From assembly GCA_016490735.1 (NCBI GenBank), contig JAEMWC010000005.1:3041001-3105000 (forward strand): 64,000 bases of DNA. Reading direction: 5' to 3'. Below, piece after piece: positions 22,758-61,222 of the stretch. The notes beneath the pieces are model-generated. The model was given only the letters and a program-made list of their open reading frames with translations, had not been told where the DNA came from and searched no databases. Source of the stretch: Pachyseris speciosa (taxonomy: Eukaryota; Cnidaria; Anthozoa; Scleractinia; Pachyseridae). Position numbers and translations under genes: made by a program. Each line of letters begins with the position of its first letter. Position 1 is the stretch's first letter.

Positions 22758-25472
22758 TCAAGTCTTTTTAACAGAATTGATCTGGTCATACTCCATTAGC
22801 TCCATTGGTTCAGGTCCTTGTTCTTGAATTGGACATTGAACGATTTCTCGAGCCAATGACCAGTCTATAACGCCGCGCTTTTTTTCTTGCAAAAACTGAT
22901 TGGCGCATTGAAAGTACTTGCCGTTGAAAAACATGGCGGAGTGGGGGTTACTGGGCGAGGGATGCTGACCCGTTAGGACATAGTGTTTGTTGGTGCCAAC
23001 TGAGTGAATATCGCTTTTAAGTTTTTGGGCTTCAGCACCCCAGAGTATCCACACCGATTGGTCGGCTTTTTCGCTAATGTACTGTACTAACAATTTAGTA
23101 AAAGGTTTCCAAAGCGTTTTATGAGATCCCGGTTTACCCCGTTCAACTGTTAATGCTGCATTCAGGAGCAAAACACCTTGTTGTGCCCACAAACTTAGGT
23201 CGCCGTTATCTAAGTTTACCTTCCATCCCTCAAGAGCTACCTCTAGCAAAACATGCTGTACTGATCGAACGATACTGGGATTAGGAACACTGAATGCCAA
23301 GCCTGTGGCCTGGCCTGGTTGTGGAGCAGGATCCTGGCCTAAGATAACAACCTTGACCTCTGATGGGGCAACCCTTGTCAGTGCTTCAAATACCAGTCTC
23401 ATGGGAGGCTCGATGCCAGAAGTTGCTGCCATCAGGCGCGCGTTCATTCCATCTAAAGCGCTCTTTACTTGTGGATGGCGAAAAAATTCTCCCCATTGTG
23501 GCGGAGCGCATTCTGTAGCAAACACGCTCATTGAAATCCTTCTGTAGTCCAGTGCCATTGACTGGCAATCAATTTCCACAGATCGCTGTTCTACCACTGA
23601 GCTTTCTGAAAACAAAGTGCATTGGTGATTATTCATAATTTAGGTTTACAACAAAATCACACGAGTAAAGAGGAAACTCGCATTGTGATTGGCTAAAGAA
23701 GGGAGGTTATTTATCGTGTAATTGCATGCCTGGCAAGTGATATTGCACTGACGTTAGCCCAAAGCAGGTTTGTTTCGTTTTGTTTCTACTTTCCGAAAAC
23801 AAAACCATTTTAAGGAGGAAATAACGTTTGCAAGATTTGGTCACCTACATCTCGAAAGTTAGCTCGGTGACCTACCCTGATTATTTGTAGACAAATATGA
23901 TTCTTTATTTTGCATTCTTCAAAAAAAATTCGAAAAAAAATTATCAAGTGGAATTTCATTTCATCTTCCAACAGATTTTTCATGAGTAACTCAAGTTCTA
24001 CTAGGCAGTTTTTGTTCATGTCACGTATTAGGTTAGAGAATTTGATGTGGATTTCGATATTTGATACAAAATACTAGATAACAGAATTGTGTTTTTTTTC
24101 AAACACTGAATTTACAGTGTAAGTGTTGATATCAAAGCAGCTATATTCCAAAATTGGTAGCGATTGAATTATGAAACAAATAACCCTTTGTTACGTGAAG
24201 CATTCCAATATGCAACAAAACAAAAGGTCATCTTTTAGTGTATTCAGTAGTGATGTTATAGTGCCCAATAATTTTACACAGGAAACCGTAACCTTGCAAA
24301 ACCACAAGACTGCTTGTTCTAATATGAAAAAGAAATTAAGGAGCGAAGATATAAAACAGTGGTTAGCATCCACGAGTAGTTCATAGCTAGATTCTAGGCA
24401 AAAATTCACACGTAAGGAAATTAAAGAAGATTACCAGATAGACGATTATCTGGAGAAAATTGGAAATCCAACTCATAGAGTAAGCCTAACAAAGCTCAGG
24501 TTAGGAGTCCACTCATTAAGAATGCAAACTGGAAAGTACGAAAACGGAGGAACACCAATTCCTGTGGAACATAGAATATATTTGGTTTGTAAGACGAATG
24601 CCATAGAAGATGAGCAGCATTTCTTGATGTGTTGCCAAGAGTACCATGATATCCGATGAGATTTCCATTCCATCGTTAAGTGAGTGGACAACTGCTTCGA
24701 GACCTTAAATGATCACGACAAGATTAAGTATATACTGAAAACTGGGAATCAAAATACATGCAAAATTATAGGGAAATATATTTACTTAATGCTTCAAAAA
24801 AGAAAAGAGATCCTTAACTGTAATTAAATTATAAATTAGTTTATTATTGTGAATTGTAAAATTAACACTCCTTTTTGAAATTTTAGACTCTTTATTGTAA
24901 ATAGACCAATATTTTTTAACCGTGCGAGCCCACAGTACTTTCGACTGCGGTATATAGACAAGATCGGGGATATAGAAGGATCTGAAAGCAGAAAACGTTC
25001 ACAAATCAGAAGGATTTCATTTCGATAATCTTTATCGTACAAAGTAAACATATTTTGGAATTAACAAGGTGAGACTTTGTCGTGTACGATCGAACAGAAC
25101 TCCTCTGCACCCTGTGACTGTTACTGTTACTGTTACGCACGCATTGACTCACTCACTCACTCACTCACTCACTCACTCACTCACTCACTCACTCACTCAC
25201 TCACTCACTCACTCACTCACTCATTGTTACATAGGCCAACTGGTTCCTTAGTTGGAAACTTTGCCTGCCCGCGTTTCCGGGCTATTATTCGAAAATTAGA
25301 AAACTATTGTCTGGCCAATCAGATTGCGAGTTTGCCAAATAGACGGCTATTATGTCGTACTAATGAATAAATAAAGCATCAAGGCTTAAACGAATAACAC
25401 TGTTGACAAACCTGTGCCTTTTACATTCAATAGCAACAATAGGACAAGAGTGAGAAGAGCTGTCTGAGCCAT
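22758..25472 (-). CDS. UDG-A: secreted uracil-DNA glycosylase-like protein (family 1), intact
   Basis: Two coding exons on the minus strand: 25472-25412 (61 bases, 20 codons plus one base) and 23605-22758 (848 bases), joined in phase 1 (ACA G|gtttgt ... ttttcag|AA AGC) to give 302 residues. Exon 1 encodes a hydrophobic signal peptide (MAQTALLTLVLLLLLNVKGT) with no basic residues before its core, so secretion is more likely than mitochondrial import. Exon 2 is a complete UNG domain: GIEPP near the start; water-activating loop VVILGQDPAP with catalytic Asp112; Phe125 in GLAFSV; uracil-reading Asn169 in VLLLNAALTV; His235 in GQHPSPS. Tyr of the usual GQDPYH is Ala114 and the following His is Pro. 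The intercalation loop lacks Leu right after HPSP. Four cysteines (34, 53, 254, 278). Family members cut uracil from DNA; the extracellular site and altered base choice are inferred. Confidence 0.88.
24171..24700 (+). pseudogene. Non-LTR retrotransposon remnant in UDG-A intron
   Basis: Frames at 24171-24386 (ends RSEDIKQWLASTSSS) and 24430-24657 (EKIGNPTHRVSLTKLRLGVHSL, CLVCKTN-like YLVCKTNAIEDEQHFLMCC) continue one another across an in-frame stop and look like the C-terminal tail of LINE-type polyproteins, which end with a Cys/His knuckle (here C-x2-C...H...C with one C replaced). The fragment is on the strand opposite to UDG-A and inside its intron. Clade not determined. Confidence 0.55.
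25146..25223. repeat. (ACTC)n microsatellite
   Basis: About 19 uninterrupted copies of ACTC, 190 bases 3' of the UDG-A signal exon within its intron. The THSL-repeat reading frames here are artefacts of the tetranucleotide. Confidence 0.95.
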
Positions 25473-25963
25473 AGTTGTATCCAGTGTTCTCAGCTGAAGA
25501 GCTGGGTGATCCAAATTGTTGCTAGAAACGTTTAAAGTAGAAATTAGAGAACATGAAAAATATTGCTCGATTTAAATTTGCGAAAAAGGATTCTTGTAGA
25601 GGCTGAAAAATTAAATTATATTGATTAGTCAATGCATCGACAAATGGAAGGCGATAGAAAATGAAATGCCGTATCATTTTTAAGGATTTGCGAAAATTAG
25701 ATTCCAACACCAATCTCGACCTGGTCCAAGTTGTTCAAAGAGCGAATAACTCTATCCAGCTGATAAGTCACTGTTCACCAGGAGAAAATGTATCAGTGGC
25801 AATACATTTTATCCGGTGGATGGCTTATGCGCTGGGTACATTTATACCCTCTTCGAACAAATGGTCCTGGTTTGAAGAGTGGTTGACATCTTAGCGTGAC
25901 AGACAATCAATAGTTGCCCGCAGAATTGGATTAGTGTATATTATATTAAATTAAGATTGTTAC

Positions 25964-26050
25964 CCTAATTCCTGCGGTAAAGTCTCGTAGATGCGACGTT
26001 ACCCCGAGACTGCTTGCAAAGCGGACTGATCGATCTGGGCTGTCCTTGTT
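25964..26050 (-). other. UDG-A putative 5' UTR exon
   Basis: On the minus strand a block with caacaaggacagcc...gatcagtcc...catctacgagacttt...gcaggaattagg ends at a donor (gtaac). The same order of motifs occurs upstream of UDG-B (near 33966-34060), and a weaker match upstream of UDG-C (62103 onward). No reading frame; a transcribed first exon is the simplest explanation. The upper bound is approximate. Confidence 0.5.
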
Positions 26051-26112
26051 GAAACTTTATGTTGAGATGACGCAATTCAAACTAGCAGATTTCATGATCC
26101 TGAAACCCACTA

Positions 26113-26303
26113 CAGTTCAACACCTGTTAAGCGGTCATCCTCAGGAAAATGAAGAGTGGCCGCTTAATGGGGGCTGGTCCCTTAATAGAGGTTCAAAACT
26201 CAACCCCCCCCAAAAAAAACAAACAAACAAAAAGAAAAAGAAATAGAGGAAACCTTATAGGGAATTGACGTTTTAATATTTGGCCCCTTAATAGGTTCGA
26301 CTG
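26113..26303. mobile_element. Possible pogo-type MITE
   Basis: Left end CAGTTCAACACCTGTTAAGCGG preceded by TA and right end CCCCTTAATAGGTTCGACTG are imperfect inverted repeats. TA is missing on the right. An internal C/A-rich tract lies at 26205-26245. Confidence 0.35.
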
Positions 26304-28590
26304 AACCATTAAGACACTACTTTAAACCAAGAAGAATGAAGAAAAAAGTCATTTACTCGAAAAGAACAGAAGTAGGTTGATCATTAGGAATAAACGCATT
26401 TTTTACCGGAGAGACCTACCTAGAAATGTTGTTCATGAAAACGTTTTAAAGAAAAAATAGTCATTAAAGGTTACGACGGATCAGTGGTAATGGACCATAC
26501 GATGGTTTTGCCGGTGGATCAGCCGCAATAATTGCCCAGGCAATAAAATCCATTAATGAAATCAGGGCCCTAGACCTTAAATTTCAGAAACAATTTTTGA
26601 TTTTTGAAATCTTTTTTATTTATTTTTCTATTGCAAGAAAACCATCAAATTGAAAATACATAGTTAATACCAAATATTTTAACGATACTTAGGCGAAAAC
26701 AAAAAATAATTCCGTTCGATTTGAATTTGAGATTGAAAACGTGGGACAAAACTCAGGTTGAAAAATCAAAATTACACTCTCGGTAAGTCAATGCATCGAT
26801 AAAAATGGAGTGATAGAAATTTAACTTGTACCAGCTTTTGGGGGTTAATTGCGAGGATTCTCGTTCTTGGATCATTTCTTCAAAACAAACACCAGAAGTG
26901 ATGAGAACTGCAGGGTCAGTTTCTTAAAAGCTTGAGGTTTCTTGTAGGTTCATAGAGACCAGTATTGTCTTCTTAACTCTTGGATGACAGAGAATTCTAA
27001 CATCGTGTCGACAGACGTTTTTTGGTTTTACACTTGCCACATAACCAGACAACTTCAAGGTTGAGGAAATGGAACCTAAGCCTAGAGTGGTTGACATCGG
27101 CAGTATATCAGTGTTATACGCTGTCCTGTTATTGACAGCAATAATGGATGTCAATGTGGCGTGCTGTGTTGTTGCGCTTCTTCTTGGAAAACGACGCCGA
27201 ATCTCAGATTGTCTCGCAGTGCATGCTAAAGCGTTCATGCACAGAAGGTATTTTCTTTGAATCGACATTCGCCTAAAGGCTCGTGTGTAAAAATATAAGC
27301 CAAGAGGATACAAGTGACTCGTGGGATATTCCATAGTAATATATCACTCGAAAGCAATGCAAGTTATATCTCAGTTATATAGTCAGTTGCATTTTAACTT
27401 TCAACTTCAACTTCAACTTTTATTCTTGACACTGTTTACAACATTTGCAAGCCATATGAAGTTTACACAAAACTATGATAAAGTAAAGCAGGATCAGTGA
27501 ACAACTGAAAAAGGTATGTGTGCAGTAACCAGAGTAGCCATTGTGGCTACAAACAACTATCCTTCCACAATCTGCTACGAAAAAAAGCCATCCATAAGTA
27601 CTTTATATCACGCCTGGGAAAATGTATAGGGAGATGAAACCAATCGATGGCTGAGTGGAATAGCGATTAAATATACAACAGATTTCCTACATTCTGATTG
27701 GCTACATTGTCTATGACATGACATTAATTCATCAGAATTCTAAACGTAAGTTCAAGGCACTACAAACGTCATCTTTTAATATTTTCCGTACACCTTAAGA
27801 CAGATAAATCTTAAAGAACAATTTCCTGCTGAGATATTGCTTTGCTTTGCAAGTACAACACTTTAAAATTTGATAATATTCCTGGGTCAGCCTAATGAAC
27901 AAGAATGATTACACAGGTATTTTGACCTCACTCTCCAAGTTTCACATTTGATGTTAATGTAAAAGTGTATTCTCAACAATTCTGAAGAGAAATTAGGAAT
28001 ACTACTGATTGTGTAACATAGTGTTATTCTTTCGCCGACCGTTATAGTGGCTATGTTGTAATTCTCAGTAAACGTTACTCTGCAACGAAACTTTATTCTG
28101 GAGAGTTACTAAAAGAGCCACAAATCGTTTTAAGTTGTTTCTTATTGCCTATCGTTTAACAACTGCATTTATTTAACTTATTCTTATAGTCTATACTGTA
28201 TACAATGTATTTTATATAATTTAAAGTTATTGAAAAAGAAAAAACGTTCACCTGAAACTTAAGCTTGGAAATCATAAATTAACGATTGAACTTGAAGATA
28301 CATATATGAAAACTATGCCAAACTTGCAGTTGTAGAGAAATCGAATATGGAACCCTGGTTTCTCTTCCGCTGCATGGGGTGGATAAATTGAAATTCTAAA
28401 ATATACACCTCTTTTCTGAATTTTAATCACAGAAATTTGTTCACCTTTGATGACCTCTGGTAACTGCTCCATGAATATACTGCTGATCGAGTGCATATCA
28501 GCGTGTTTTGATTTGCATGAAAATTGGGTTCGTAGTCTGATTGTTTTGTTCTTTCACAATACCATTTTCATCTTACAGTCATGCAAAGGA
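26304..28590. other. Intergenic, no gene; dispersed repeat at 27392-27550
   Basis: A block beginning tttcaacttcaacttcaactttt...gtttacaacattt and ending ...aaaaaggtatgtg...agagtagccattg (27392-27550) recurs at 39797-39985. A 136-residue minus-strand frame at 26924-27334 has no recognisable motif and I leave it uncalled. Confidence 0.45.
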
Positions 28591-29557
28591 AAGCTACTGC
28601 ATATCAATCTCCATTGGTTCAGGCGGACATTCATTTAAAATGTTTTCTTTAGTCAAATTCCACTTTATCGCACCTCGGCGTCTGCGGCCCAAAAATGCGT
28701 TGGCGCAGCGAAAGTAGTCGCCACCAAAAAATTTATTCTCTACACGGGTCGACCCTTGTGGTGAAGGATGCCCCCCAATATTACATAGTGTTTGTTGGAA
28801 TCAATTTTTTTTTGGAAAGATTGGGCCTTTTTACCCCAGAGAAACCAAACTGAAGCTGGAGCGTTGTTGCTAATATATTCTACCAACAGGTTTGTAAAAT
28901 TACGCCAAAGCTCAACATGAGATCCAGCGTTCTTACGTTCAACAGTTAAAGCCGCATTCAGGAGTACAACGCCTTGGCTCACCCACGAATTTAGGTAGCC
29001 TTGATTTATGTTGACATAAAATCCCTCCAGAGCCAACTCTAACAAAACATTCATCACTGTTGGAACAGCTCTGGGGTTACGAACACTGAAAGCCAAGCCA
29101 GTGGCCTGGTCAGCTTGTGGAGTAGGATCCTGGCCTAAGATAACCACCTTGACCTGTGATGGGGTAATTCTTTGCAGTGCTTCAAATACCAGTGTCATGG
29201 GAGGTTCGATACCTTCGAAATCTTCTCTACGAGTTTTTTGCCACAGGGTGTCGTTCACCTTATTTAAAGCCATCCTTACGTCTTCTCTTTGAAAAAATTC
29301 CCTCCAGTTTGGCGGAGCGCATCTCTCTGCGTAAGTGTTTATAGGGGTCGTCCTGTAATAGAGTATCGCCGTGCAATCAATTTCCATCGGTTGCTGTTCT
29401 ACCACTGAGCTTTCTGAAAACAGTTAACATTGGTGATTACTCATAATTTAGCTATAAGCATTTTCAACGTCAGCGATAGTGTACATGCCATTCTAAGGTA
29501 GAAGGGACTTTACATTAAACGACTTCATCAGTTGTGATAAAAAATAACAAACGGAAA

Positions 29558-29612
29558 CAACAACAACAACAACAACAACAAAAATAATAATAATAATAAT
29601 AATAATAATAAT
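29558..29612. repeat. (AAC)n/(AAT)n microsatellite
   Basis: About ten CAA units followed by ten AAT units, immediately 5' of the truncated retrotransposon in the UDG-B intron. Confidence 0.9.
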
Positions 29613-29710
29613 TTTACATCAAAAGAAGTATCTTTCAGGGAGATTCCCTGTCCCCGCTCCTTTTTGTGGTCACAATGAACCCTCTTACTATCATTCTCAG
29701 AAAGTGCGAC

Positions 29711-29778
<68 letters not shown>

Positions 29779-31330
29779 ATATATGCAAACAACACTAAGT
29801 TGAACCACCTTTTCTTCATGGATCAGGATTTGAAGCTATATGCCAGAAATTAGAACCAGTTAGATTCACTGATACAAACAGTGCGAATAATCAGCGAGGA
29901 CATTAGTACGAAATTTGGCACCGAAAAATGTGCTGTCCAGGTAGTGAAGCGTGGTAAGCTGGCACATTCAGAAGGGATTACATTACCTGACGAGATTACA
30001 ATAAGAGCTATGAAAGAAAGTGAAGGATACAAATATTCAAGAGTGCTTGAGGCGGACGGCATGCTACATGACACGATGAAGAAAAAAATCGGGAAGGAAT
30101 ACTTACGTCGGGTCATAAAAGTTGAACAATCTAAGCTAAACGGTGGAAACCTGATAAGTGCCATAAACACCTGGGCAGTATCACTTGTCAGATATGCGGG
30201 GGGTATAATCGATTGGAAGAAACAAGAACTCCAGGATTTAGACCGCAGAACAAGAAAATTAGCTGAAATTACTGACAATGAACGGGGACTTCCATCCACG
30301 GGATCGCGTAAAGCGACTCTATGTCCCAAGGAAGGAGGTAGGAAGAGGCCTTATCTCAGTAGAAGACTGTGTCAATCAGGCAGGGATATTGCTGGAGACT
30401 TATGTTTAAGTCAGTGAGGAGAAGATTTTGAAAGCAGTCAGGAGGAAAGGAGTTGAAAACCAAGAAACGGCTACCAGTTTTAAAGATAGGAGGAGAACCC
30501 AAAATATCCAAGGATGGAAAGAGATGCTACTATATGGGCAATTTGCGAGACAGAGCGGAGATCAAAGAAATGATGAAACATGGACTTGATTGAAAGTAGG
30601 AAAGCTTAAAAGAGAAACGGAGTCTCATTATTGCAGCACAAGATCAAGCTATAAGAACAAATTACGTAAAAGCAACGATCAACAAGTCACAGGCTGATAC
30701 CAAATGCAGAATGTGCAAACAAAACAACGGGACCATCAGCCATATTGCTGCAAAAAGAATACAAAAAGAGACATGACAGTGTAGCTAGGGCGGCTCATTG
30801 GGACCTGTCAGGAAAATATGGGTTTGTGCGAAATGATATGTGGCATGACAATGTTCCGGACAGTGTACTTGAAAATGAGGAGTACAAGATGCTGTGGGAC
30901 TTCAGTGTACGAACAGACCATGAGATCGAGGCTAGGAGACCGGATTTATTGGTCATGGAAAAAAGAGAGAAGAACTGCCAAATTATAGACGCGGCAAACC
31001 CGGAAGATGGAAGGGTGAGAGCAAAAGAAGATGAGAGAGTAGAAAAATATCAAGATCTTGCGAAAGAAATTCAAAAGATGTGGGGAGTAAGGACAAAGGT
31101 GAAACCCAATGTGGTGGGGGCATTGGGAACAATACCACTGAGGTTAAAAGACAATCTGAGGACCATAGGTGTGGACACGTCCATTGAACTGATTCAGAGA
31201 TCTGTATTGTTGGGGTCGGCAAGGATCCTTAGGAAAGTGCTGGAGATGTAGGCAGGAGAGGAAAGTAACGATGAAGGACGCTTCTTGGTTTCCCTAGACA
31301 GCTGGTTGCTGCTCGGAGCCAATGAAACCA
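29613..31330 (+). pseudogene. 5'-truncated R2-like (restriction-like-endonuclease) non-LTR retrotransposon
   Basis: Coding sequence starts in the reverse-transcriptase domain: FQGDSLSPLLFV at 29635, then a catalytic-motif region FFMD-(Q)-DLKLYA near 29810 that is disturbed, followed by 29881-30417 (FGTEKCAVQVVKRGKL, EGYKYSRVLEAD, SAINTWAVSLVRYAGGIIDW), all typical of the RT C-terminal half. After several frame breaks, a degraded knuckle (CRMCKQN...H) at about 30700 and 30745-31251 give the endonuclease-type tail: EARRPDLLVM...CQIIDAANP resembles the PD...D core of restriction-like endonucleases, ending LLGSARILRKVLEM. An (AT)n tract splits the RT. Dead copy in the UDG-B intron on the opposite strand. 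Confidence 0.75.
29711..29784. repeat. (AT)n microsatellite inside the RT remnant
   Basis: About 33 AT units separate two conserved reverse-transcriptase motifs, so the tract expanded within the retrotransposon after insertion. Confidence 0.95.
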
Positions 31331-31351
31331 GATTTGATCTGAGAGTATTAG

Positions 31352-31450
31352 CAATAATAATAATAATAATGATAATAATTATAATAATAATAATAATAAT
31401 ACTTTATTTATATTAAGCGCTATTTCTATCACTATCCAATAGTGCTTTAC
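31352..31450. repeat. (AAT)n tract and 3'-end-like repeat sequence
   Basis: About 15 imperfect AAT units followed by actttatttatattaagcgctatttctat...agtgctttacgat, which looks like the 3' tail of an interspersed element. It could be the end of the R2-like copy or a separate insertion. Confidence 0.5.
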
Positions 31451-31599
31451 GATCTGAAACGTTTAATAACAGAACAAATAATGCAAATAATAAACTCCAC
31501 ATGATAACATTGCGGAATAACTTGTTTATTATTGGACATTTTTGTCTCCTCAAATGTTTCCGTCTTTTAACGTACTCTTTTTGCGCTCTCGTAGACCGC

Positions 31600-33180
31600 A
31601 TTACCGTCTTATGATTGCCGTTTTTTTCCTACCTCACTATTTGCATTTTAAGCTGCTATGCGCTGCTATAAGCTACAGTACCTCACAAGAATCATGAGCT
31701 CAAGTAGGGCCAGAATCTTTCAACGCTCTATGCAACTGCTTTAAAGTTTGCGGGAGAGTAAACTTCTTTCGTGCTCCCTTTCTGTACTTTTATAAAGGTC
31801 AACCGAAGTATTTTGCCTATTCTGCAGCTGTAGTTGCGCAGTTGCAAAGTGTAAGTTACAAGGATAAACTGGTAAAATCATTGAAATGTTTGTGTTTTCA
31901 TCGTCTTCCCAGAAAATTCTTTGTTTTAGGGCTGGGATTTCCCCTAGGGTTGGCCTTTATTCATTGTCAGGCCATAGTATGCGCAATAAATGATCCGGGA
32001 CCCGTCGGTTCAAAGAGTGGGTAGCTTTGTCTAGTGGAGAGGTCCTTATCCAGCAGATAAAATTTATTGCAACTAATTAACAGTTATGGATGAGGTTGAG
32101 CATAAAAGCAAGAATTACCACGGCCAAAGTTTGTGTTACTCGGCTGCCGAAGCCGAAGGCTGTGGCGGACACCACATATCGAGGCCTTGATAATTCTCTT
32201 AATCATAAAAATTACAATTTCCTCGATTGTGATTGGTTTAAAAAACTCCTATTTTCCACTAATTCACTTGCCAAGTTGTTATCGGACAGTTTGTTATTGG
32301 AGACTTTGTTATCGAACAGATCAATAAGCCAATCACATTCAAAGTAGTATTTTAAATCAACCAATCACAACCTTGGTTACAATCACCATACATTTTGATC
32401 GTAGTCAATTTCAGAGCTTCCTTCGTCAGCCTCTTAATGCAAAATTTCCTTCCCTTTTATAATTTGGCTCTTCTTCTTTTCTCGGAAATTGTAATTTTTA
32501 TAATCAACTGGTAATAAGACTTCGCGTCGTCCAATTTGGTCTGTGATCATACTCATGATAAACAAATCAGACTCCCGCTGCGCGGTCGTCCGATTTTGTT
32601 ATCACTCGTATGATTACAGACCGAACTGGACTCCACTCAGTCCTAGTACCATTACTTATCATGCGAAAACAGAATTCAATAATTGTGTTGTTATGCATAC
32701 ACTTGAACGTTTCTAAAAGCAATCAGGAAGAAAGAAACTAAACATGGCACATCAAATTGTAAACATTAAATTGTATATATTAGTTACATAAAGATATCTT
32801 ATCTTGGTTCAATGTATCCGGTGGAATTTATATAAATTTCTCAACTGAGCAAATTCTATTTCAGAATTATTCCCAGCCACCTATAAACAATAACCTCCCA
32901 CGCCGGCTAAATTTACTTCCTAAGTGCTCTCAGTTCGTAAATAATTTAATAATATAATGGAATATTGAGAATTTGCTGTATAAGACCGACTTTTGATATT
33001 TTATCTACAAACCTTTTGATGTGCTGTCTTTTTTTGTTTGTTAGTTCGTTTTCGTCACAGTAGCTATCAAAAGTTTTTGAAATCCTAAAGCGTCTTAGGG
33101 CTGTCTCGTCGTTTCAGCATAGCCCAAGGACAGATGTATCACACAGAGAAGTCCAATTGAACTGGCTCGTTTCTGGGTGA
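31600..33180. repeat. Palindromic interspersed repeat in UDG-B intron (about 32190-32620)
   Basis: 32190-32260 (aattctcttaatcataaaaattacaatttcc) and 32480-32515 (ggaaattgtaatttttataatcaa) pair in inverted orientation, and 32520-32625 folds on itself around cagactcccgctgcgcggtcgtccg. This suggests a foldback MITE of roughly 0.45 kb. The remainder of the interval shows no gene. Confidence 0.45.
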
Positions 33181-33965
33181 GTGGCTTACAAGTTGGAAGA
33201 TTTCCGTGCGCGCTTTTCCAGGCCGTCGCCCAGCCAATCAGATTCCTTGTTTGCCAAATAGTCGGCTAGTGCCCGTTACGAATGGTTTTAAAAGAGCACC
33301 TTTACTGAAACGAAAACGTGGTTGACAAACCTGTGCCCTTTAGGTTCAGCAGCAACGGTAAACAGGCAGCGAGAAAAGCTGTGTGAGCCATAATTATATC
33401 CAATGTTCTTGAAGAAGTGATTTGGATTGTTTCTAGAAAAGTGTAAAATAGAAATTAGAAAACATGAAAAAATATTCCTTCGATTTAAATTTGACAAAAA
33501 TGTAATCACTTAGGTTCAAACATTTTAATTAAAAGATCAAACCATTGTTGCAAATTTAATGTTAATCGAATTTGAGATGTCCCAGTTTTTTAAAGGTATC
33601 ATTTTCAGTGACCTCCGGCCACTGAGTCAAGCAGTGAGAACGAAAACGATACAATAGACTAATGTTGACCTGCATTATGGTTTGAAGAGTGATTGGTAAT
33701 TGAAGTAGCGATGATCATGATAATTAGATAGAAAACTTAAAACACAAACCAAGCAAAAAATTAAAACAACACCACCTTCACAACCACCACCAACATTAAC
33801 GACAACAACAACGACAAAAAACGAAAACAAAACAAAATAAAAATGTCGTTAATTCTCGCGGTTAAACTGAATTGCCTTTTAAACAACAAGGATGAGTGCA
33901 AAAAACCTTGCTGGTCGAAAAAGAAAAATGAAAACAAAAACAGAGAAAAAGTGAAAAATAGTTAC

Positions 33966-34060
33966 CCTGACTCTTGCGACAAAGTTCCGTAGATATGAAT
34001 CAGTTCACCCGAACACTGATAGTAAAGGACTGATCTGCTCTCACCTTGTTGACCCGCAGT
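33966..34060 (-). other. UDG-B putative 5' UTR exon
   Basis: Minus-strand block with caacaaggtgagagcagatcagtcc...catatctacggaactttgtcgcaagagtcagg ending at donor gtaact, matching the order of motifs upstream of UDG-A. It lies 575 bases upstream of the signal exon. No reading frame. Confidence 0.5.
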
Positions 34061-34189
34061 TACGCCATCCAAACTGATCTTATCATCAAGAAAGCCACGG
34101 CGATTAACTTCAAAATCACCGGCGGGTGATTCTGTTTATTCAAACAAAAAAGATCTAAAATTCGTTTAAAACACGACTATCACTAAAAG

Positions 34190-34935: not shown

Positions 34936-34939
34936 TCGA

Positions 34940-35965: not shown

Positions 35966-35966
35966 G

Positions 35967-36300: not shown

Positions 36301-37187
36301 AGCCATACAGTCTTTTGCCATTGTCTAGAATAGTAGCTAAAGTTTTTGAATTCCAATAACTACATGATTTAATTATAGAGTAGCACAGAGAGTAGATGGC
36401 TACAACACAACTTAGATTTAAATTTACGCTCTCATGTGCATTGTTCAGAAAAAGTACTATGCCATTTTGAACTTCGTTAATGTGTACCCCCTTCACCTCA
36501 AATATATCATTATTATGTATACTCTGAAAATAACATACTAATCTATCAAGCGATAATGCTTCAAGTAGCACACATGTACCTTGAGGATCGCCCCTACCAT
36601 ATACATCTCTTGCATGAGAATCAAATATTTTGAACCAGGGCTCCTGTCTTGAACCCCATATGAACATTGTAATGAATAGAAACACCGATAACTCTCACAG
36701 TTAATATAAAATTGGTGTAGTTTTGAGATAATAGTGATTCAAAGGCTCTTTGTAGAGAAGTACAGTACTGGTATCCTTCTATTTCAGTCTCCTGATGCAC
36801 AGTACCGGTGAAACTTTCACTGTATTCTAGTTCATAGTCAATATCAAGCACATTTAAAATTGTAGGTAATTCTGTCTGCATTAAATAAGACTGTCTGCCT
36901 AATTGAGACAAACTTGAATACAACTGATTTCCAATATTCATTATTTGAATAAGGTCATTCGCAGAACTGATTCCTTGTTTGCTGTTATAAATCAAACTGC
37001 ATAAACTCATTGCAACACATTGTTGTCCAGCATTTTTTCCAAATACCAACTCTTTACCTTGGCTATATGGTGCTGCTATTGTTTTGCTGGGATCAACATA
37101 CACTGAGCGAGGGCCAGGGTTCTTTTCTATATATGTGGTAAATTTACAATAATTTGCTGCATGGGTTTGACTCTTATAAAGACACAT
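36300..37187 (-). pseudogene. Transposon-type cysteine protease (C76/OTU-like deubiquitinase) with N-terminal 2A-like motif
   Basis: Minus-strand frame 37187-36621 carries YIEKNPGP at residues 19-26 (bases 37110-37121 for NPGP), matching the ribosome-skipping 2A consensus D/-x-E-x-NPGP. About 25 residues on comes a Cys-centred motif GKNAGQQCVAMSLCSLIYN and, after a frame change near 36650, FKIFDSHARDVYGRGDPQGTCVLLEA in frame 36685-36224. Gly-Gln-Cys plus Asp-Ser-His is the pattern of the deubiquitinase-like cysteine proteases found in herpesvirus tegument proteins and in several eukaryotic transposons. The frameshift separates the Cys and His halves, so this copy is broken. It is likely a fragment of a larger mobile element; family assignment is tentative. 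Confidence 0.5.
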
Positions 37188-37189
37188 AA

Positions 37190-38545
37190 CTTTGTTACAA
37201 GAAAACAGTGAGCTATATCGTGTACTTCAACATTTTAACTTTATTCTTAGCTACAGAATTATATATGGCTGGAGAAAAATAGAGTGCCGAGATATTTAGA
37301 GCCGCGTGCGCCAGGGAGGAGATACGAGAGAGGATTGCCAAGGCGGTTAGAAAGCTGGAATTGTTGGGTTGAAGTGAATTTTAATTGTAAGTAATTAATT
37401 AAGCTGTTTGTCAAATCAATGATAAAGTCTCGAACCGTTAAAATCAATGAAATGCTCAGAAATTTTATGGATTACCTTCGCAGGGGTCGTTTGTGCTCTA
37501 AACCGGAAACTCCTCCTCACCCATTGCTAGACCAAACCAAGATTTCAGACTTGAGCGTAAAAATCCCAACCTTCCTCTTAATTAAGTGTGGTAAAAGAAT
37601 ATATACCGGGCACCCTAATGCTAGCCCTATGGAGCGCCAAATAATTTCAAAATGTGAACAGGGAAGTGCGTTTCCCTCCTTCTAGCTCTTTGAGAACGCG
37701 AACTCAATGCCTGCTAGAAAAGTTTGAATACAGATAAGAAACTAAGAAAAATGAGAAAAAAAGTGACCAGGTCGGGCAGTTGTTCAAGAAAACCCTAATG
37801 ACTAAATGCATCAACAAAGAAATCTAAGTGGAATGCTTGATCAGTTTGTCGATAACAAATTGAAATGTCTCGGTGTTCCGAAATTTGGACTATTTTTTTT
37901 CAGGATTATAAAATGATGGATTTGCATTTATACTCGAATTCCAACTCGAAATGGATCATTAACTGAGTAATAAACGCTTGTGATAAGTTAGGAAAGCAAT
38001 TAGCAAACAATACCGAGGAGTTGACAACCAGGCGGGGTTTTAAGAGATTGAATAATAATAAAAAAATATTTCACTTATTGATATGTTATCAACAATGATA
38101 TATTACTCAACAATGTACGAGGAACAATTTTTTTTCTTTTCTAAAATGTCCCGGAGATTTCGCGCGAGAAATGGCTTGATGAAATTTGACGACACTCTAA
38201 CCCCCACATTTTGCTTTTATTTTCAAAATAATTTCAACCATGAATTGAACCGCTTGTTTTTATTGTTTTGCATTATTTTCTTTATAAAATGTCTAGAGAC
38301 ATGCACGCGCACTCACTTGTGACAAAGCCTGCGTGCATTATATTTCCACAATGCACACGTGTGACATATGGTGTGTGCAACTATAGAGATTTATATAATA
38401 AGGTGAATAGTTCGCGCGTTGAGATTGGTTCTTAGCTATGATCTATTAGAGGACAGATGCACAGATTACATCATCACTGCAACTATTTTTCCAGAAATGT
38501 GAAAATAAACAAGTTTTTCGCTTGCATTTTGTTTCTTTATTATAT
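37190..38545. other. No gene recognised
   Basis: Non-coding, with short chance frames. Confidence 0.4.
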
Positions 38546-38548
38546 AAA

Positions 38549-38733
38549 ACAAATAGATTCCATGTTGCCGTGCGTCTGTTCAGTAATAGATCACAGAAGA
38601 CGTCAAAATGTGGTAAAAACATCAGTGACACGCTCGCCTGCGGCTCGTGTGCCACTTCTTTGTTTTTATCACATTTTGACATCATCTTTAATCTATTACT
38701 GAACAGACGCACGGCAACATGGAATCTATTTGT
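38549..38733. mobile_element. 185-base foldback MITE
   Basis: Inverted arms of about 75 bases (ACAAATAGATTCCATGTTGCCGTGCGTCTGTTCAG... and its near-exact complement) flank a loop of about 30 bases. It lies at the edge of the segment duplicated between UDG-psi and UDG-C and is absent from the UDG-C copy. Confidence 0.75.
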
Positions 38734-38984
38734 TAAATAATGCACTCGATTCGACCAATCATACCACGCGCAATTCTTCGAACATTTTATAAAATATGAA
38801 TAGATTTCGTGTTGCCTTGCGTATATTCAATGAGTAAACTATTTTCTGATTAAGGTCTCCATTCTGAAGGTGCCTCTGTCTTCGATATGATTTTGATTAC
38901 GCAACCAGGCAAGTCCCATGATCAAGCTAGATCAATGGCTCTGACAACTGACAAATTAATTTATATTCTTACTTATGATTTTAT

Positions 38985-39770
38985 TTGTGAGGAAAAGCAT
39001 ACAATCCACTATCCTGTATAGCTTGTCCTTGATGATTTGGGCACGGATTCAAAACGTTTTCGCCTGCCACCAGTGACCAATCGACTGGATTTCGGTTCAC
39101 TTTCATCAAAAATTTATTAACGCACTTTGAAAGTAGTTGCCACCAAAAAATTAAAATTTCATTGACCCCCCCTTCCCTAAGGCTGATGGGTGACCTCCCG
39201 TTATGACATAGTGCCTTGGTTCGTCAATATATCCTAAGTCTTTGAACGCCTGCGCTGTTTTGCCCCAGAGAAGCCTCACGGATGGGGGAGCCTTTTGGTT
39301 GATAAACTGTATTCATAACACTGTGAACTGGTTCCAAAGGCCTCCCGCGCTATTCCTCCCCAGAGTGAAGGCCGTGTCCAGGAGAAGAACGCCTTCGTTT
39401 GTCATTGTTTACGTCTACCTTGAATCCCTCGAGAGACACTCCTAGCAAGATGCTCATTACTGTTGTAACGGAATGGGGATCAGCAACGCTGAAAGCCAAA
39501 CCTGTAGCTTGGCCAGGTTTGGGAGTGGAATCCTGGCCTAAGATAACAAACTTGATCTGGGTTGGAGCTACCAATTCCAAAGCTTTAAATATGTTTGACA
39601 TTGAAGGTTTTATGCCTGGTTGATTTCTTCGGTTAGCCTCTTTAGAAAGGATTGGGGCCGTTTCGCCGAAGTCTATATTTACTTCTGGATTTTCAAAAAA
39701 TTCTCTCCAAGCATGTGGAGCACGTTTCCTTTCTAATTCGTCGATTGGAACGGTCTACACTTTCTAGACC
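38985..39770 (-). pseudogene. UDG-psi: decayed uracil-DNA glycosylase-like copy
   Basis: Co-linear with the catalytic exon of UDG-C. The longest open piece (39601-39350) reads IKFVILGQDSTPKPGQATGLAFSV, so the loop Tyr is Thr and the conserved Pro is Ser. After it, a deletion of about 20 bases (near 39402) removes the segment corresponding to the region after VDVNNG, and insertions break the Leu-loop region (run of C at 39165-39172). The 5' part (39610-39770) shows the PPA-W-EEFF-equivalent and TxPID-like region but lacks a clean acceptor and start. No signal exon is found upstream: the expected position is occupied by an interspersed repeat (39797-39985). Non-functional. Confidence 0.8.
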
Positions 39771-41200: not shown

Positions 41201-41202
41201 TA

Positions 41203-42872: not shown

Positions 42873-44002
42873 TCAATAATATCTCTGAGGTGGTTTTCGT
42901 TCCCTTAGGGGGTATCTGTGTTCTGGTTTCTCAGGCAAAGGCTGTGAAGATTTAGAATCTTGAGTGTACATGTCTTGAGACTTCAGAGTGACTTCAGACG
43001 CAGAGTTCAATACTGGTATGTCATTTGGCAAGGTGGTTTCCTCTGCCTCCTTCTCTGTAGTGGTCAGTGGGGGTGTCGGTTTAATGGGTGCATTATCTAG
43101 TTCGAGTGGTGGTCTCTCCACTGACTCTAGTATTAGGGACTCACGAAGAGGTTCGGAGCATTGTGTTGTGGGTATGTGTCTCGGACGAAGCTGTCCTTCA
43201 TGTCGTTTCCACAGAGTATCTCCAACTTGGACATCAAAATTTCTAGGACTGACTGTTCCTGTAATCCTCCCAGGTACCCATTTGGCTCCTTTCCCGAAAT
43301 TACACACAAAAACTGGCTGATCTGGGGTAAACTTCGGCTTATTGTCTTGAAAAACCTTAACTTCTTGTTTAGTGTTCTTACTTCTTAAAGCACTGAGTCT
43401 AATTCTAGGTTGTCTGTTCATTAGCAATTCTGAAGGTGACCAAGTGAAGTAGGCGTGGCTCTGTACGTCAGTAAGAAGCGATCTAGTTTTGTCTGTACTG
43501 ACTTGTCTGTATCACCAATCTTGTTCAGCTTATCCTTAAATTCTCCGACATAGCGTTCCGTTACTCCATTTGTTGCAGAATGTCCAGGGGCTGTAAACGT
43601 ATGTTGAATATCATTATCCCTGAGAAATTTCTGGAATTCTGCACTTGTGAATTGGCTGCAATTATCAGTTACAAGTTGTTCAAGTAAGCCAAAGTAGCTG
43701 AAAACATGTCTCAGAGCCGCAATGGTGTTAGCTGAAGTGGCTGATGACATTGGCACTACCTCTAAAAATTTAGAGTAAGCATCCACTATAACTAAAAATG
43801 TCTTTCCTAGGTAGGGTCCAGCAAAGTCTAAGTGCAGGCGCCTCCATGGTCCACCCGGCCATGACCATGAAGTCGGTTGGGATGATGCTGGTGATTTAGC
43901 GGCTTCCTGACAAGCAGTACACAACTTGACAGTTTCCTCTATTTCTTTGTCCAGTCCGGGCCACCATAGGTACTTTCGTGCTAGTTGTTTCATTTTAACC
44001 AT
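42873..44002 (-). pseudogene. Integrase and C-terminal domain of Ty3-type pol
   Basis: The frame 44002-43421 contains YLWWPGLDKEIEE with the knuckle CTACQ, the first acidic residue in HLDFAGP, the second in LVTDN and the Glu in NGVTERYV, so the D,D-35-E triad is still recognisable. It breaks near 43425; the frame 43427-42873 continues through MNRQPRIRLSAL and a chromatin-binding-like module FVCNFGKGAKWVPG ending RYPLRERKPPQRYY. Broken across two frames. Confidence 0.8.
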
Positions 44003-44269
44003 ACCAAGGTGTTCAGCATGTAAATCCTTCAGTAGAAGGCTACGCAGTGACTCTGGTATGACAACCCGCGAGTTCCATAGTAAAACACCATCTTCATGGG
44101 TAAGGTCGAGTCGTTTGCTGTAATAGGGTTGAGTACTGGTTCAGGGTGTTCTGGCCAACCATGCTGAGTGTAGTGTAAAACTTTGCTAAGTAGTGGATCC
44201 TTCTTGGTTTCCATAGCAACCACTGAAGCATTCACAAACTGATCCCCTCGATAAACATCAGGTTCACAG

Positions 44270-45500
44270 TTACTTGCTCTGCTGAGGAGGGCTCAGTGGC
44301 AATTGGCTTTCTGGAAAGAAACCTGCATACACATTTTCTTTGCCAGGAATGAACTCAATTGTGTAGTCGTAAGCAGCAAGAAGCAAAGACCATCTTTTAA
44401 TTCTGGTTGAGGCTAGCTGAGGCACAGGTTTATGCTTTCCTAGTAAAGTAATCAAAGGCTTGTGATCTGTAAGAAGTTTGAAATGCCTTCCAAGCAAGTA
44501 CTGACGGAATTTGGTGATGCCAAAAACAATCGCTTAAGACTCTCTTTCAATTTGAGAGTAGTTCTGTTCTGCACTGTTCAGTATTCGGGATGCGTAAGCA
44601 ACAGGTTGGAAAGAACCATCAGGTCCAGGTTGAAGCAATGCAGCTCCCACACCAACAGAAGATGCATCACACTGCAGAACTAGTTCAGCGGAATGATCAT
44701 AGTGAAGCAACACAGAGTCAGAACATAAAGCTGCTTTGAGATTATCAAAAGCATCCTGTTCAAGTTTTTCCCATTTCCAGGGTGTTCCTTTATGAAGTAA
44801 TCTGTTAAGGAGTGAGGCAATTCTTGCAAAATCTGGCACAAATTTGGGAAGGAAATTTGCACTTCCAAGGAAAGACTGTAACTCAATTACATTTGCTGGA
44901 GGTGCTGCCTCCTGAATGGCATGTACTTTCTCTTTGGTGGGTGAAATTCCACCTGCAGAAATGGTGGTTCTCAAGTACACAACTTCATCGAGCATGAAGT
45001 GAAACTTGTCAGGGTTAAGTTTCAGTTCACATTCCAGTAATCTCTGTAGAACCCGGTGCAGGTTCTCCAAGTGGATTTCATCAGACTCTGCCGAAATGAG
45101 TATGTCATTAATGCGAACACAGCAGCCTGGAAGATCCTTCAACACATTTTCAATGGTGCTTTGAAAGATAGATACTGCACTTAGTCTACTAACTCCATAA
45201 GTCAGTCGTTTGTACTGATATAGACCTTGATGGGTGTTAATAGTAGTCTACTTTCTACTTTCAAGGGTAAGTTACAGTTGATGATATGCCTGGGAAAGGT
45301 CGATCTTAGTAAATCTCTTTCCACCCGACAACTTGCTCAACAGTTCCTCAAGAGTAGGTACTGGGCATTGCTCAAACACTGAAAATTTGTTAATAGTGAC
45401 TGAGTAGTCTCCACAAATTCTAAGATCCCCACTTGGCTTCACAATAGGGACTGTTGGTGAGGCCTATTCTGAATGTTCTACTTTCTCAATGATATCGTCT
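44270..45500 (-). pseudogene. Reverse transcriptase/RNase H of Ty3-type pol
   Basis: RT thumb and RNase H are readable in 45145-44534 (LNPDKFHF, LQSFLGSANFLPKFVPDF, LQCDASSVGVGAALLQ, EQNYSQIE) and 44497-44270 (LTDHKPL, RIKRWSLLLAAYDYTIEFIPGKEN). The catalytic YxDD motif has become RIND, losing one Asp, so this polymerase would be dead even without the frame breaks. Confidence 0.8.
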
Positions 45501-45820
45501 GCCACGAATTTCTCTAGAGCTTTCTCATACCTGGATCGGATTGCAAAAGGCACTACTCGAGGTTTGGTGAACACAGGATTTTCCTCTTTCACTCGCAATG
45601 ACACCTGACCTCAGCCCTTTGAGTTTCCTCACAGTACTGTTGTCAAACAGATCAGGGTATTGACATACAATGTCTTCAGCTGTAGTTGAAACAGTACTGA
45701 AAATGTTCTGCCAAGGTAATGTAAACTTAGACATCATGTCACGCCCAAGGAGTGACGGCCACGAACAACACGAATCAAGAGTGTGTCAACCTGATTTCCA
45801 ATCTGAACTCTCATGTCTTT

Positions 45821-57626: not shown

Positions 57627-60600
57627 TTAGTCATGATTTCTTTTCTGAGGTAATGGGTACAGTCCACTATCCTGTATAGCTTGTCCTTGATGATTTGGAC
57701 ACGGATTCAAAACGTTTCCGCCTGCCACCAGTGACCAATCGACTGGTTTTCGGCTCACTTTCACCAAAAAATTATTGGCACATTGAAAGTAGTTACCACC
57801 AAAAAAGGTATTTTCATTGACTCCACCTAAGGCCGATGGGTGACCTCCCATTAGGACATAGTGCTTTGTTTGATCAATCAATCCCCCATCTTTGAACTCT
57901 TGCGCTGTTTTGCCCCAGAGAAGCCACGCGGATGGGGGAACCTTTTTGCTGATATAATCTATTAAAAGCTTTGTAAAGTCGTACCAAAGATCTACATGAC
58001 GTCCCGCCTTATTCCTCTCGACAGTGAGGGCCGTGTTCAGGAGTAGAACGCCTTCGTTTGCCCATTTTTCCAAGTTGCCATTGTTTACGTCTACTTTGAA
58101 TCCCTCGAGGGCCACCTCTAGCAAGATGTTCATTACCGTTGGAACAGAACGGGGATTAGCAACGCTGAAAGCCAAGCCTGTGGCCTGGCCAGGTCGGGGA
58201 GTGGGATCCTGGCCTAAGATAATAACCTTGATCTGATTAGGGGCTACCTTTTCTAAAGCTTTAAATATGTTTGGCATTGGAGGTTCTATGCCTGGATAAT
58301 TTTTTTTGTTAGCCTCCTTAATAATGACTGGGGTTATTTCTTTTAACTCTTTGTCTACTTCTGGTTTTAAAAAAAATTCCTCCCAAGCTGGTGGATGACA
58401 TTCCTTTGCAAAAGCGTCGATTGGGGTGGTCTCATAGTTTGCTTCTTCACATTTAATGTCCACTTCCATCATTGAGCCCTCTGAGAACAGAATACACAAA
58501 AATTGTACATTGTAGTTAGACCAAACAGAGGCTAATAAAGCTAGAGCTAAAACATTTTCAATGACATCGACATGGAACATATTCATGGGGAAAATTAGAA
58601 GCTGACTAACAAATAAGAATAACTATTTACGTGACAAACATGACGGCTTTTTTCCCCTTAATCCAAGCTCTTTTAGCAGCTTTTCGCCAGGTGCTCTTGA
58701 ATAGCTTAATAAGGACCTTAAGATACGAGGACATAAAGCAGGGGCACCCAACGAGCCAAATCAACCAAAAGATGTAGAAAGGTATTTTTAAGTACCTGGT
58801 GGTGTTTGAAGTCTGTTTAAAGTGATGTTTTCATAAGCTAGACGAAGTTCATCTGTTCGGATTCTCTAGGTGGAAGTTTAATTGCCCGAAAATGTTAGCA
58901 AGCTGAAATGAACTTTCTACAACCTTTCTAGGGAACTATTTTCTTTCCGAAAATGCTAGCTGACATTTTTGACTGCCAGAAACAGCAATTACGACCCTTC
59001 CGAAAACCTCAGAGGCTATCATTTCCCAATTGCGAATCTTTTAGGCCACGTTTTAGTTACGAAAATCCGAGTGCACTCTTAAATCAACGCCGAAAGCCCA
59101 AGGCGAATTACCCTCCACCGAACAGATATCTACCGAAACTTGTCGTTGCGTGCCCCTGATAAAGATCTAGGACGGTTTTCACTTTTCACACATGCGCACG
59201 AGTACTGTCGCCCAGCCCCATCCCGTCCCGGGGCCTGTTTCTCGAAAGTCCTGGTAACGTAACGTGCCTGAAACCATATATTGAAATCAAAATCTCCTTT
59301 GTTTTGATCTCTTAAACTCTTGTTGAATGAAACAAATTGCGTACACTCGCGAATTACAATTTTTAACTCTGGCTTCCCACTCAATTTAGAATGACAATTA
59401 CTGGCTTGTAGACTTTGCAACATATGCCCTTTTCCTTAGATCCAAGTACCTTACCCCTATTTCGTATACTTAGTACACCACTTCTGTTGGGATTAAGGTA
59501 CCTGTTGTTGGAGCGACCCAGCAAAGGATCCTCCCGCGAAAGAAATACAGTGTAAATGTATAAATGATGTATCCCTTGTATCACCCTGATTTGTAATAAA
59601 CAACAGGATTTGTAATATCAACCGGATTTGTAATAAAAATCAACCGGATATGTAACAACAACAGGATTTGTAATTAAAATTAACCGGATATGTAATAAAA
59701 TAACTAACAGAATTTGTAATAAACTTTCAACTGGATTTGTAATAACATACTTAACCGGATTTGTAATAACCTATCAACAGGATTTGTAATAACGCTGCGA
59801 AAGGTGAATCACATACCCAATGTATTTTCTTAAAGATATCCATACCCTCTGTTCTCCTACTTATGGAAGGGTCTGGACATTCCAGAAGGTTAGGAGTCGA
59901 AGACTGCGCCAATTTCAGAGGAGTTTAGGAGAGGGGAGTGTGGAGTTAACATATTCTACATATCTGCCTTCATATATGACCCCCGGGGGCACTCCCTATA
60001 ATGGCCTATACGGGGGTCTCCACCCGAAAGGGGGAGGCGCCACGCAGCTCTCGGAACAGTTCACAGGATTGGCTGAGAAAACAATAAACAAACAACAGAA
60101 ACAATGGACCCTAGCCCTCAAATAATGGAGCTGCGTGGTAATAAGAACCAATGAAATAATAGGTTACTGAGAGGTGCGTGGCATCTGGAAAGGGGTACCT
60201 TTTTCACTCTTCAGGATGTATGAAAGGGTAGGCTTTCACGAGGCTAAGTATATGAAACGGTAGGGAAATATGTCATTTTGGTATTTAAAGGGCCTTTCAT
60301 TAAAATATTTCGAACACATACCTTACCACTGTACTGTTTTCATGTTGCGTTATATATCAGAACATATCATGTTTGCTTATATTATAACAAAGTAGAAAAC
60401 CTTTTTGTTATTCTTGTTAGACTTAGGTTAGAAAGCGGGGCAGGCAGAAAAACACCAAGAATATTATTTCGGCTGCTCACTCCCCTCCCTTCTCCGCTCA
60501 TCTTGAATTCCGTATTCGAATTCGACCAACGACTCCCCGTCATCCCCCCACCCCCCCCCCTCCCCACTCCCTATAGAAATTTCCAACCGTAAAGGTAGGG

Positions 60601-60906
60601 AAGGATATTGATATTTTATTGCAAACGCACATCAAGGTATGTGACTCACCTTTCGCAGTGTTATTACAAATCCGGTTAAGTATGTTATTAAAAATCCGGT
60701 TGAAAGTTTATTACGAATCCGGTTAGTTATTTTATTACATATCCGATTGATTTTAATTACAAATCCTGTTGTTATTACATATCCGGTTGATTTTTATTAC
60801 AAATCCGGTTGATATTACAAATCCTGTTTCTTATTACAAATCAGGGTGATACATCCCTGGCAACTTGGTTCGTAATTCACACACGTTTATAAGCAGTCAT
60901 CCAAAA

Positions 60907-60962
<56 letters not shown>

Positions 60963-61222
60963 TGATGATGATGATAATGATGATGATGATGATGATGATG
61001 ATGATGTTGATAAAACTTCTATAGCGCCGATATCAATATCGCTATTTTCATCAGCACTTAAAAGGCAGGCCTTTGCTTAACAATCAACGTGCGAGTTTGC
61101 CACGTAGTTATTCGACAACTTTATATAATTCCGAGGATTAAGAGAAACGTAGTTGACAAACCTGTGCGTTTTCCGTTCAGTAACAGCACCAGAATGACGG
61201 TAAAGAAAGCCGTTTGAGCCAT
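57627..61222 (-). CDS. UDG-C: secreted uracil-DNA glycosylase-like protein (family 1), intact
   Basis: Coding exons 61222-61162 (61 bases; MAQTAFFTVILVLLLNGKRT, hydrophobic signal peptide) and 58480-57627 (854 bases), joined in phase 1 (ACA G|gtttgt ... gttctcag|AG GGC) to give 304 residues. The upstream in-frame ATG at 58586 lies in intron sequence and is not used in this model. Catalytic exon: GIEPPMPNIF, VIILGQDPTP (Asp112; Tyr of GQDPYH is Thr114), GLAFSV (Phe125), VLLLNTALTV (Asn169), and MGGHPSALGG (His234), where Leu is present close to the intercalating position, unlike UDG-A and B. Exactly four cysteines (31, 48, 254, 281), at corresponding places in UDG-A. A C-terminal extension rich in Pro, Gln and His follows. 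Predicted extracellular DNA glycosylase; activity untested. The intron contains a 1.3 kb foldback element. Confidence 0.88.
59577..60853. mobile_element. Foldback element with tandem-repeat arms, TSD TCCCT, in UDG-C intron
   Basis: Each arm of about 240 bases is made of about ten copies of a 20-28 base unit (aaccGGATTTGTAATAA...), direct within an arm and inverted between arms (59577-59815 and 60640-60853). Termini TGTATCACCCTGATTTG and its complement; exact TCCCT on both sides (59572-59576, 60854-60858). The central part encodes nothing recognisable; a C-rich tract lies at 60543-60565. Confidence 0.8.
60908..61006. repeat. (AAT)n/(GAT)n microsatellite
   Basis: About 17 AAT units then about 15 GAT-type units, producing an artefactual poly-Asn/poly-Asp frame. 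It lies between the foldback element and the UDG-C signal exon. Confidence 0.95.

Follow-up and report, generated by a model that had tools for sequence, protein, structure and literature searches.

Uracil-DNA glycosylase-type genes with predicted signal peptides in the coral Pachyseris speciosa, and their bacterial-type relatives

Gene structures in the window

The stretch of DNA analyzed here (64,000 nucleotides, hereafter the window; G000:C5:3041001-3105000) is part of the 984-Mb genome of the coral Pachyseris speciosa, which is represented by 2368 contigs. It carries three genes of the uracil-DNA glycosylase (UDG) type known as UNG, which we refer to as genes A, B, and C, and in each of them a first exon of 61 bases that we infer to encode a cleavable signal peptide lies ahead of a single catalytic exon. 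All are on the minus strand. In gene A, exon 1 (25412..25472) encodes the putative signal peptide MAQTALLTLVLLLLLNVKGT and the first base of a split codon, and exon 2 (22758..23605) is the UNG-type catalytic exon, with the motif GQDPAP. The corresponding exons are at 33331..33391 (predicted signal peptide MAHTAFLAACLPLLLNLKGT) and 28594..29413 (GQDPTP) in gene B, and at 61162..61222 (predicted signal peptide MAQTAFFTVILVLLLNGKRT) and 57627..58480 (UNG-type, GQDPTP) in gene C. The donor GTTTGTCAAC is common to the three signal exons, and the acceptors read ...TTTGTTTTCAG (gene A), ...CTGTTTTCAG (gene B), and ...CTGTTCTCAG (gene C). With a GT donor, an AG acceptor, and a phase-1 join, the result is an open frame of 302 amino acids for gene A and 304 for gene C. 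Gene B has a one-base frameshift in a run of G near position 28775, after which the C-terminal part is encoded in another frame, ending with a stop at 28596-28594; the gene may be a young pseudogene, or the frameshift may be a sequencing error. There is also a fourth copy, D (38975..39754, minus strand), which is decayed, its main frame being interrupted by three stops, and which is nearest to gene C. A tblastn search with the signal peptides of the three genes found no signal exon for it.

The first-pass annotation of this DNA had described three UNG-type genes on one strand, each with a 61-base signal exon spliced in phase 1 to one catalytic exon, and the junctions it gave (25412/23605 and 61162/58480) are exact. 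It overlooked the frameshift in gene B and copy D. Its description as a tandem family holds as far as the shared strand is concerned, but the arrangement is only loosely tandem, as the genes extend across 38 kb and fragments of mobile elements lie both between and within them.

Conservation of the signal exons

The encoded signal peptides of genes A, B, and C are 60-65% identical in pairwise comparisons over 20 residues. Between A and C, the signal exon has accumulated ~12 synonymous and seven nonsynonymous changes on 16.3 and 43.7 sites, respectively, giving a ratio of nonsynonymous to synonymous rates (omega) of 0.06, with synonymous sites near saturation; omega for the signal exon is 0.36 for A-B and 0.23 for B-C. 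For the catalytic exon the values are 0.32 (A-C) and 0.31 (B-C). The bare start pattern of the exon is weak evidence if taken alone (four matches vs. 0.98 expected, with two of 100 shuffles equally high), and three of its four matches are the signal exons of the window genes.

UNG proteins of animals are located in the nucleus or in mitochondria. The presequences of A and B contain no Arg and one Lys, and that of C contains one of each, flanking a hydrophobic core of 10 residues; on these grounds we rejected mitochondrial targeting. Because the N-termini are of signal-peptide type, they argue against a nuclear or mitochondrial location.

Other loci, database proteins, and coral gene models

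A Pfam search of the genome returned nine matches, all nine with GQDP[T/A]P, although a canonical gene divided into short exons could escape such a search. Six further family loci occur in the genome: two on contig C194, one on C2085, one on C478, and two on C323. Upstream of five of them (L009, L010, L011, L012, and L014) there is a candidate exon with an ATG, a hydrophobic stretch, and a phase-1 GT, in each case picked by likeness to a paralog or gene model from a list that holds other candidates as well. The candidates of L009 and L010 are alike, as are those of L011 and L012, and the first two are the best supported. The upstream scan of L013 gave no convincing candidate signal exon. Hydrophobic phase-1 candidate exons are frequent by chance (two to 11 per 6-10 kb stretch, counting nested variants), and we therefore rejected their mere presence as proof. 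Both copies on C323 look damaged, as their matches are split among two or more frames and some of the alignments contain a stop.

Among the matches listed, many family clusters occur in corals and other sources. The protein P0137 (309 amino acids, from a 1396-base contig and presumably derived from a transcript) matches locus L010 in two contiguous parts: residues 1-21 fall on the predicted signal exon (57% identity; E value 0.25, which is weak taken alone) and residues 22-267 on the catalytic exon (67% identity). P0019, a close relative of P0137 on a contig of 1.67 Mb, begins instead in apparent intron sequence. Two other proteins, P0008 (...LVLIGDYTES) and P0020 (...LVLNGDYTES), can be compared with gene A at the position where it has ...LLLNVKGTES.

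Eleven named coral gene models, from Oculina, Desmophyllum, Pocillopora, and Montipora, are among the matches listed (P0014, P0031, P0071, P0134, P0152, P0156, P0159, P0162, P0179, P0184, and P0201), and eight of these have a signal-like N-terminus (P0134 after extension). As to the exceptions, P0014 is ambiguous and P0071 covers part of the domain only; the Oculina model P0152 has a membrane-anchor-like stretch further in. Several of the models show a dibasic site after a short pro-region (e.g., LEKR in P0179 and P0184), a form familiar from cnidarian secreted proteins. In the wider set, hydrophobic N-termini occur in 37 of 151 family proteins. We rejected this figure as standalone proof, as several of these N-termini (e.g., MEFIFLFIQLFIF...) resemble read-through of an intron pyrimidine tract. 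Because neither they nor the candidate exons are conclusive alone, we rely on the named gene models, on P0137, and on the conservation among A, B, and C. One coral-type protein, P0124 (512 amino acids), contains two UDG units in tandem within one polypeptide, as seen by eye.

The family also has four specific cysteines (positions 31, 48, 254, and 281), which are shared by the bacterial-type group described below and fit an exported protein. They are probably disulfide-bonded, which would hold the mature domain together. The pairing 31-48 and 254-281 fits only loosely with the pattern of loss: in the 119 of 151 rows that were usable, all four cysteines are present in 88 and the latter two are lost together in 17, whereas only Cys254 is gone in eight, only the last in two, and four rows show other patterns.

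Active site and family membership

We aligned 293 sequences (166 coral-type, 31 bacterial-type, and 96 canonical UNGs) and transferred the residue numbering of human UNG to the coral family by motif. Asp145, Pro146, Phe158, and Asn204 are found in all 197 family sequences (coral and bacterial types together) and His268 in 193 (162/166 coral-type and 31/31 bacterial-type; the four exceptions include three gaps). At position 147, by comparison, there is no Tyr in any of the 197: coral-type sequences have Thr (116), Ala (40), or Val (10), and bacterial-type sequences have Ala (30) or Thr (one). The window genes read GQDPA (A) and GQDPT (B and C). In UNG, Tyr147 is the residue that excludes thymine and blocks C5-substituted pyrimidines generally.

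It is important to note how these sets were defined. Coral-type and canonical sequences were sorted by residue 147 itself, and the bacterial type was chosen by similarity to P0068, an outlying member. We thus rejected the complete lack of Tyr147 in the family as standalone proof and, because a split based on this residue is circular, built a FastTree phylogeny of all 293 rows from which columns 147 and 148 had been removed. The 197 family and 96 canonical sequences fall on opposite sides of one branch with 99% support, in a tree that has long branches. As a control, we took the best 80 of 589 confirmed prokaryote loci and the best 80 of 440 viral loci from a family-profile search. After three and four rows, respectively, without a readable motif were dropped, Tyr was present in 77 of 77 prokaryote and 76 of 76 viral motifs. 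These best-80 lists show that the change at 147 is unusual but do not establish its absence from prokaryotes, because the exported bacterial type is not among them.

In tests for the features of family 1 UNG, the UNG alpha/beta fold was present. The GQDPY motif has been used to sort family 1 (PMC5387724), and by that criterion the coral family falls outside it, despite its UNG-type fold and catalytic residues. The NCBIfam Ung model NF003592 scores above its cutoff for A, C, and P0008 and below it for B and P0201, and the other four listed Ung models, including TIGR00628, are below their cutoffs for all five. The SMUG1 motif GMNPG, with Asn in third place, is not matched: 197 of 197 have Asp there, preceded by Gln in 195.

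Bacterial-type relatives and nuclease fusions

A search with P0068 led to the bacterial-type group, which has 31 sequences including P0068 itself; named members come from Thalassotalea fusca and from metagenome-assembled genomes of Nitrospirota and Saccharibacteria. A hydrophobic N-terminus is found in 26 of the 31 vs. 2 of 96 canonical sequences, and a lipobox-like motif in 11 of the 31 vs. none of the 96. In two members, P0213 (386 amino acids) and P0220 (422 amino acids), part of an Endonuclease_NS domain precedes the UDG, matching profile positions 140-222 and 108-221 of 223, respectively. This domain of DNA/RNA nonspecific endonucleases (PF01223), which we take to be of the Serratia and NucA type, is a separate fold, and was not seen in the coral genes scanned. 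The nuclease part of P0220 matches two nucleases of solved structure, 1zm8 and 1g8t, of which 1g8t is an extracellular endonuclease. It is possible that P0213 and P0220 are two-step DNA-degrading proteins.

In a tree of 54 selected rows (27 of the 166 coral-type, 14 of the 31 bacterial-type, and 13 of the 96 canonical sequences), a branch with 100/100 support separates the combined coral and bacterial-type rows from the remainder, but the coral rows alone are not one group (approximately unbiased test, p-AU 0.0022) and the bacterial group branches from inside the coral family. In the analysis of the full 293-sequence alignment, it is placed with the type of L006/L007 and three other rows (SH-like approximate likelihood ratio test, SH-aLRT 95). 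These placements point to a transfer between animals and bacteria, although any direction assigned to it would hinge on a distant root. Searches at strict limits, run without a positive control, did not find the bacterial form in 394 and 395 genomes of the order and family of G001, nor in 379 and 294 genomes of the phyla of G760 and G761. Plasmid and phage searches returned 86 and 100 records, respectively, all at <60% identity.

Published evidence and known systems

A UDG of Stylophora pistillata, m.7445, has been reported from haemolytic pool 1, where its peak area was the third largest and an actinoporin was also present; its best hit is at 38% identity with 78% cover (PMC5762905). Other proteins of that list are intracellular (e.g., gelsolin), and haemolysis was ascribed there to the actinoporin (PMC5762905). 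Among our sequences, 147 family proteins compared with 59 canonical ones (a set that is mostly bacterial and from one search) have a median best identity of 38.6%, with Pocillopora P0162 at 38.1%, whereas canonical sequences have a median of 77.9% to the nearest canonical neighbor. Because its 38% fits the family rather than the canonical figure, m.7445 is probably a family member, as judged by the identity figure and not the sequence. For Acropora digitifera, three uracil-DNA glycosylases appear in a table of DNA repair proteins (PMC3750612). Among the papers listed by our literature searches, none describes a secreted or coral UNG.

Compared with canonical UNG, the coral family differs in having GQDP[T/A/V] for GQDPY, Pro for His148, extra cysteines, a signal peptide (predicted), and a single catalytic exon. 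It resembles SMUG1 (family 3; GMNPG motif; PMC7826747) in the small residue on the C5 side of the pocket, and SMUG1 excises 5-hydroxymethyluracil (PMC13230825). It differs from SMUG1 in having the Gln-Asp of UNG rather than Met-Asn, and the solved-structure sequences that the coral family matches are UNGs. Another parallel is with the thymine editors made from human UNG (Y147A) and Deinococcus UNG (Y85A), in which the same pocket position was altered and thymine editing detected (PMC11289083). Replacement of Tyr147 of human UNG by small residues such as A, C, G, and S gave detectable but low thymine editing (PMC11289083). Those proteins are engineered and intracellular, whereas the coral family is natural and mostly has Thr, not Ala.

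Interpretation and alternatives

We favor, with some confidence, an interpretation in which the family members are exported and probably active as pyrimidine-DNA glycosylases, have an opened C5 pocket, and act on extracellular or engulfed DNA. Its parts differ in strength. Predicted entry into the secretory route is well supported, given the conserved signal exons of A, B, and C, the candidate exons at five of the six other loci, the coral gene models, P0137, the four cysteines, and the bacterial-type relatives, and the family is very probably exported. Export of an UNG-type enzyme had been proposed in the first-pass annotation, and the sequences support this. The UNG-type assignment made there stands for the fold and the catalytic residues, but the loss of Tyr147 had gone unnoticed, as had the bacterial-type relatives and the nuclease fusions. 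We think it likely that the family is a working glycosylase; that it accepts C5-substituted pyrimidines is a tentative suggestion, about which we are somewhat doubtful.

UNG is the textbook intracellular repair enzyme, with a near-perfect selectivity for uracil that is set largely by one tyrosine. Reading secretion, disulfides, catalysis, substrate range, and biological role from sequence, we envisage that a clade of UNG-fold DNA glycosylases was rerouted into the secretory pathway. The clade retains the UNG catalytic residues (Asp145, which activates water, His268, which stabilizes the leaving group, and Asn204 with Phe158, which bind the base) and has lost His148 and Tyr147, the block to C5-substituted pyrimidines. 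Such enzymes would flip pyrimidines out and excise them from DNA outside the cell or in phagosomes or secretory compartments, with a substrate range extended beyond that of UNG, to include uracil and C5-substituted uracils such as thymine and 5-hydroxymethyluracil. Together with nucleases, they might damage or degrade foreign, prey, symbiont, or self extracellular DNA.

Several observations weigh against this interpretation. Position 148 is Pro in place of His in 193 of the 197 family sequences, the Ser169 position is variable (90 Ser, 39 Ala, and 37 Thr in the 166 coral-type sequences), and Leu occupies the intercalation position, 272, in only 25 of 166 coral-type and 8 of 31 bacterial-type vs. 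79 of 96 canonical sequences (gene C itself keeps Leu); DNA binding or catalysis may therefore be weak. Thymine editing by Y147A reached 0.4%, and threonine, the commonest coral-family residue at 147, is not among the editing residues named in the available part of PMC11289083. Both nuclease matches comprise the C-terminal part of the domain only, and the extract that contained m.7445 was of whole tissue, not of isolated nematocysts or mucus (PMC5762905). The A-B catalytic omega (0.63) is high. For L011 and L012, omega of the signal exons is 1.19 on six changes, and the likeness of these exons carries little weight because the copies are nearly identical (synonymous divergence, dS, of 0.05 in the catalytic exon).

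Some of these points would suit a secreted protein that is not an enzyme, that is, a protein of UNG fold that binds DNA or has a structural role in secretions or venom. The loss of Tyr147 and His148, the variable Ser169 and Leu272 positions, the many copies and fairly fast evolution, and the presence of a UDG alongside actinoporin in Stylophora are all consistent with it. We nevertheless consider this unlikely, as a protein that only binds would hardly need Asp145, Asn204, and Phe158 in 197 of 197 sequences and His268 in 193, and fusion to part of a nuclease domain suggests DNA processing. It is also quite improbable, in our view, that the protein is retained along the secretory route (in phagosome, symbiosome, or lysosome) and, instead of leaving the cell, attacks DNA from microbes or algae that have been engulfed. 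A signal peptide alone cannot separate release from retention, corals host intracellular algae, and P0152 has its membrane-anchor-like stretch, but the bacterial-type relatives have signal-like N-termini, some of lipoprotein type. The UDG of Stylophora was likewise recovered in supernatant from extracted tissue (PMC5762905), but this does not discriminate release from retention.

A very different possibility is that the signal exon is artefactual or belongs to a minor form, and that most of the product is an ordinary intracellular UNG paralog translated from an ATG in the catalytic exon or the intron. Gene A does have an in-frame ATG just upstream of the acceptor, the long open frame of gene C extends into the intron, and chance candidate exons are, as noted above, common. 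In gene B, however, a stop immediately before the acceptor closes the frame. In addition, genes A, B, and C share a conserved signal exon, for which P0137, P0008, P0020, and named gene models provide matches, and the family-specific cysteines and exported-looking bacterial-type kin are ill-suited to an intracellular role. We regard this explanation as very improbable.

If export of an active glycosylase is correct, the family would show how a repair enzyme turns into an extracellular DNA-attacking protein, and would provide natural relatives of the engineered thymine-editing UNG variants, with the bacterial-type relatives as a second, more tractable test system. It would also connect what corals secrete with the unusual DNA found in dinoflagellates, in a way that can be tested. 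On the boldest view, a target is 5-hydroxymethyluracil, which is abundant in dinoflagellate DNA and reportedly replaces 12% of the thymine in Symbiodinium microadriaticum and 62.8% of that in Prorocentrum micans (PMC11071213). One might go further and speculate, at long odds, that corals export opened-pocket thymine/5-hydroxymethyluracil glycosylases as weapons or clean-up enzymes against the DNA of dinoflagellate symbionts, prey, or parasites, with passage of the gene between animals and bacteria and nuclease fusion in bacteria. Symbiosis alone cannot explain the genes, because Desmophyllum, which lacks algal symbionts, carries them too.

Other features of the window

Within the intron of gene B are two long plus-strand open frames (29854-31251), which have no Pfam match above cutoff and are probably mobile-element remnants. 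A broken Gypsy-type retroelement lies at 42873-46747 on the minus strand, with integrase and reverse transcriptase/RNase H domains in separate frames, adjoined by a zinc-knuckle-like frame seen by eye. The minus-strand open frame at 36621-37226 has a borderline Herpes_teg_N match (25.8 bits vs. a cutoff of 25) and, near its start, the stretch YIEKNPGP, which we take to resemble 2A ribosome-skipping peptides. Finally, the open frame at 6725-7525 (minus strand), without a Pfam match, has many regularly spaced cysteines and looks like part of a secreted cysteine-rich protein.

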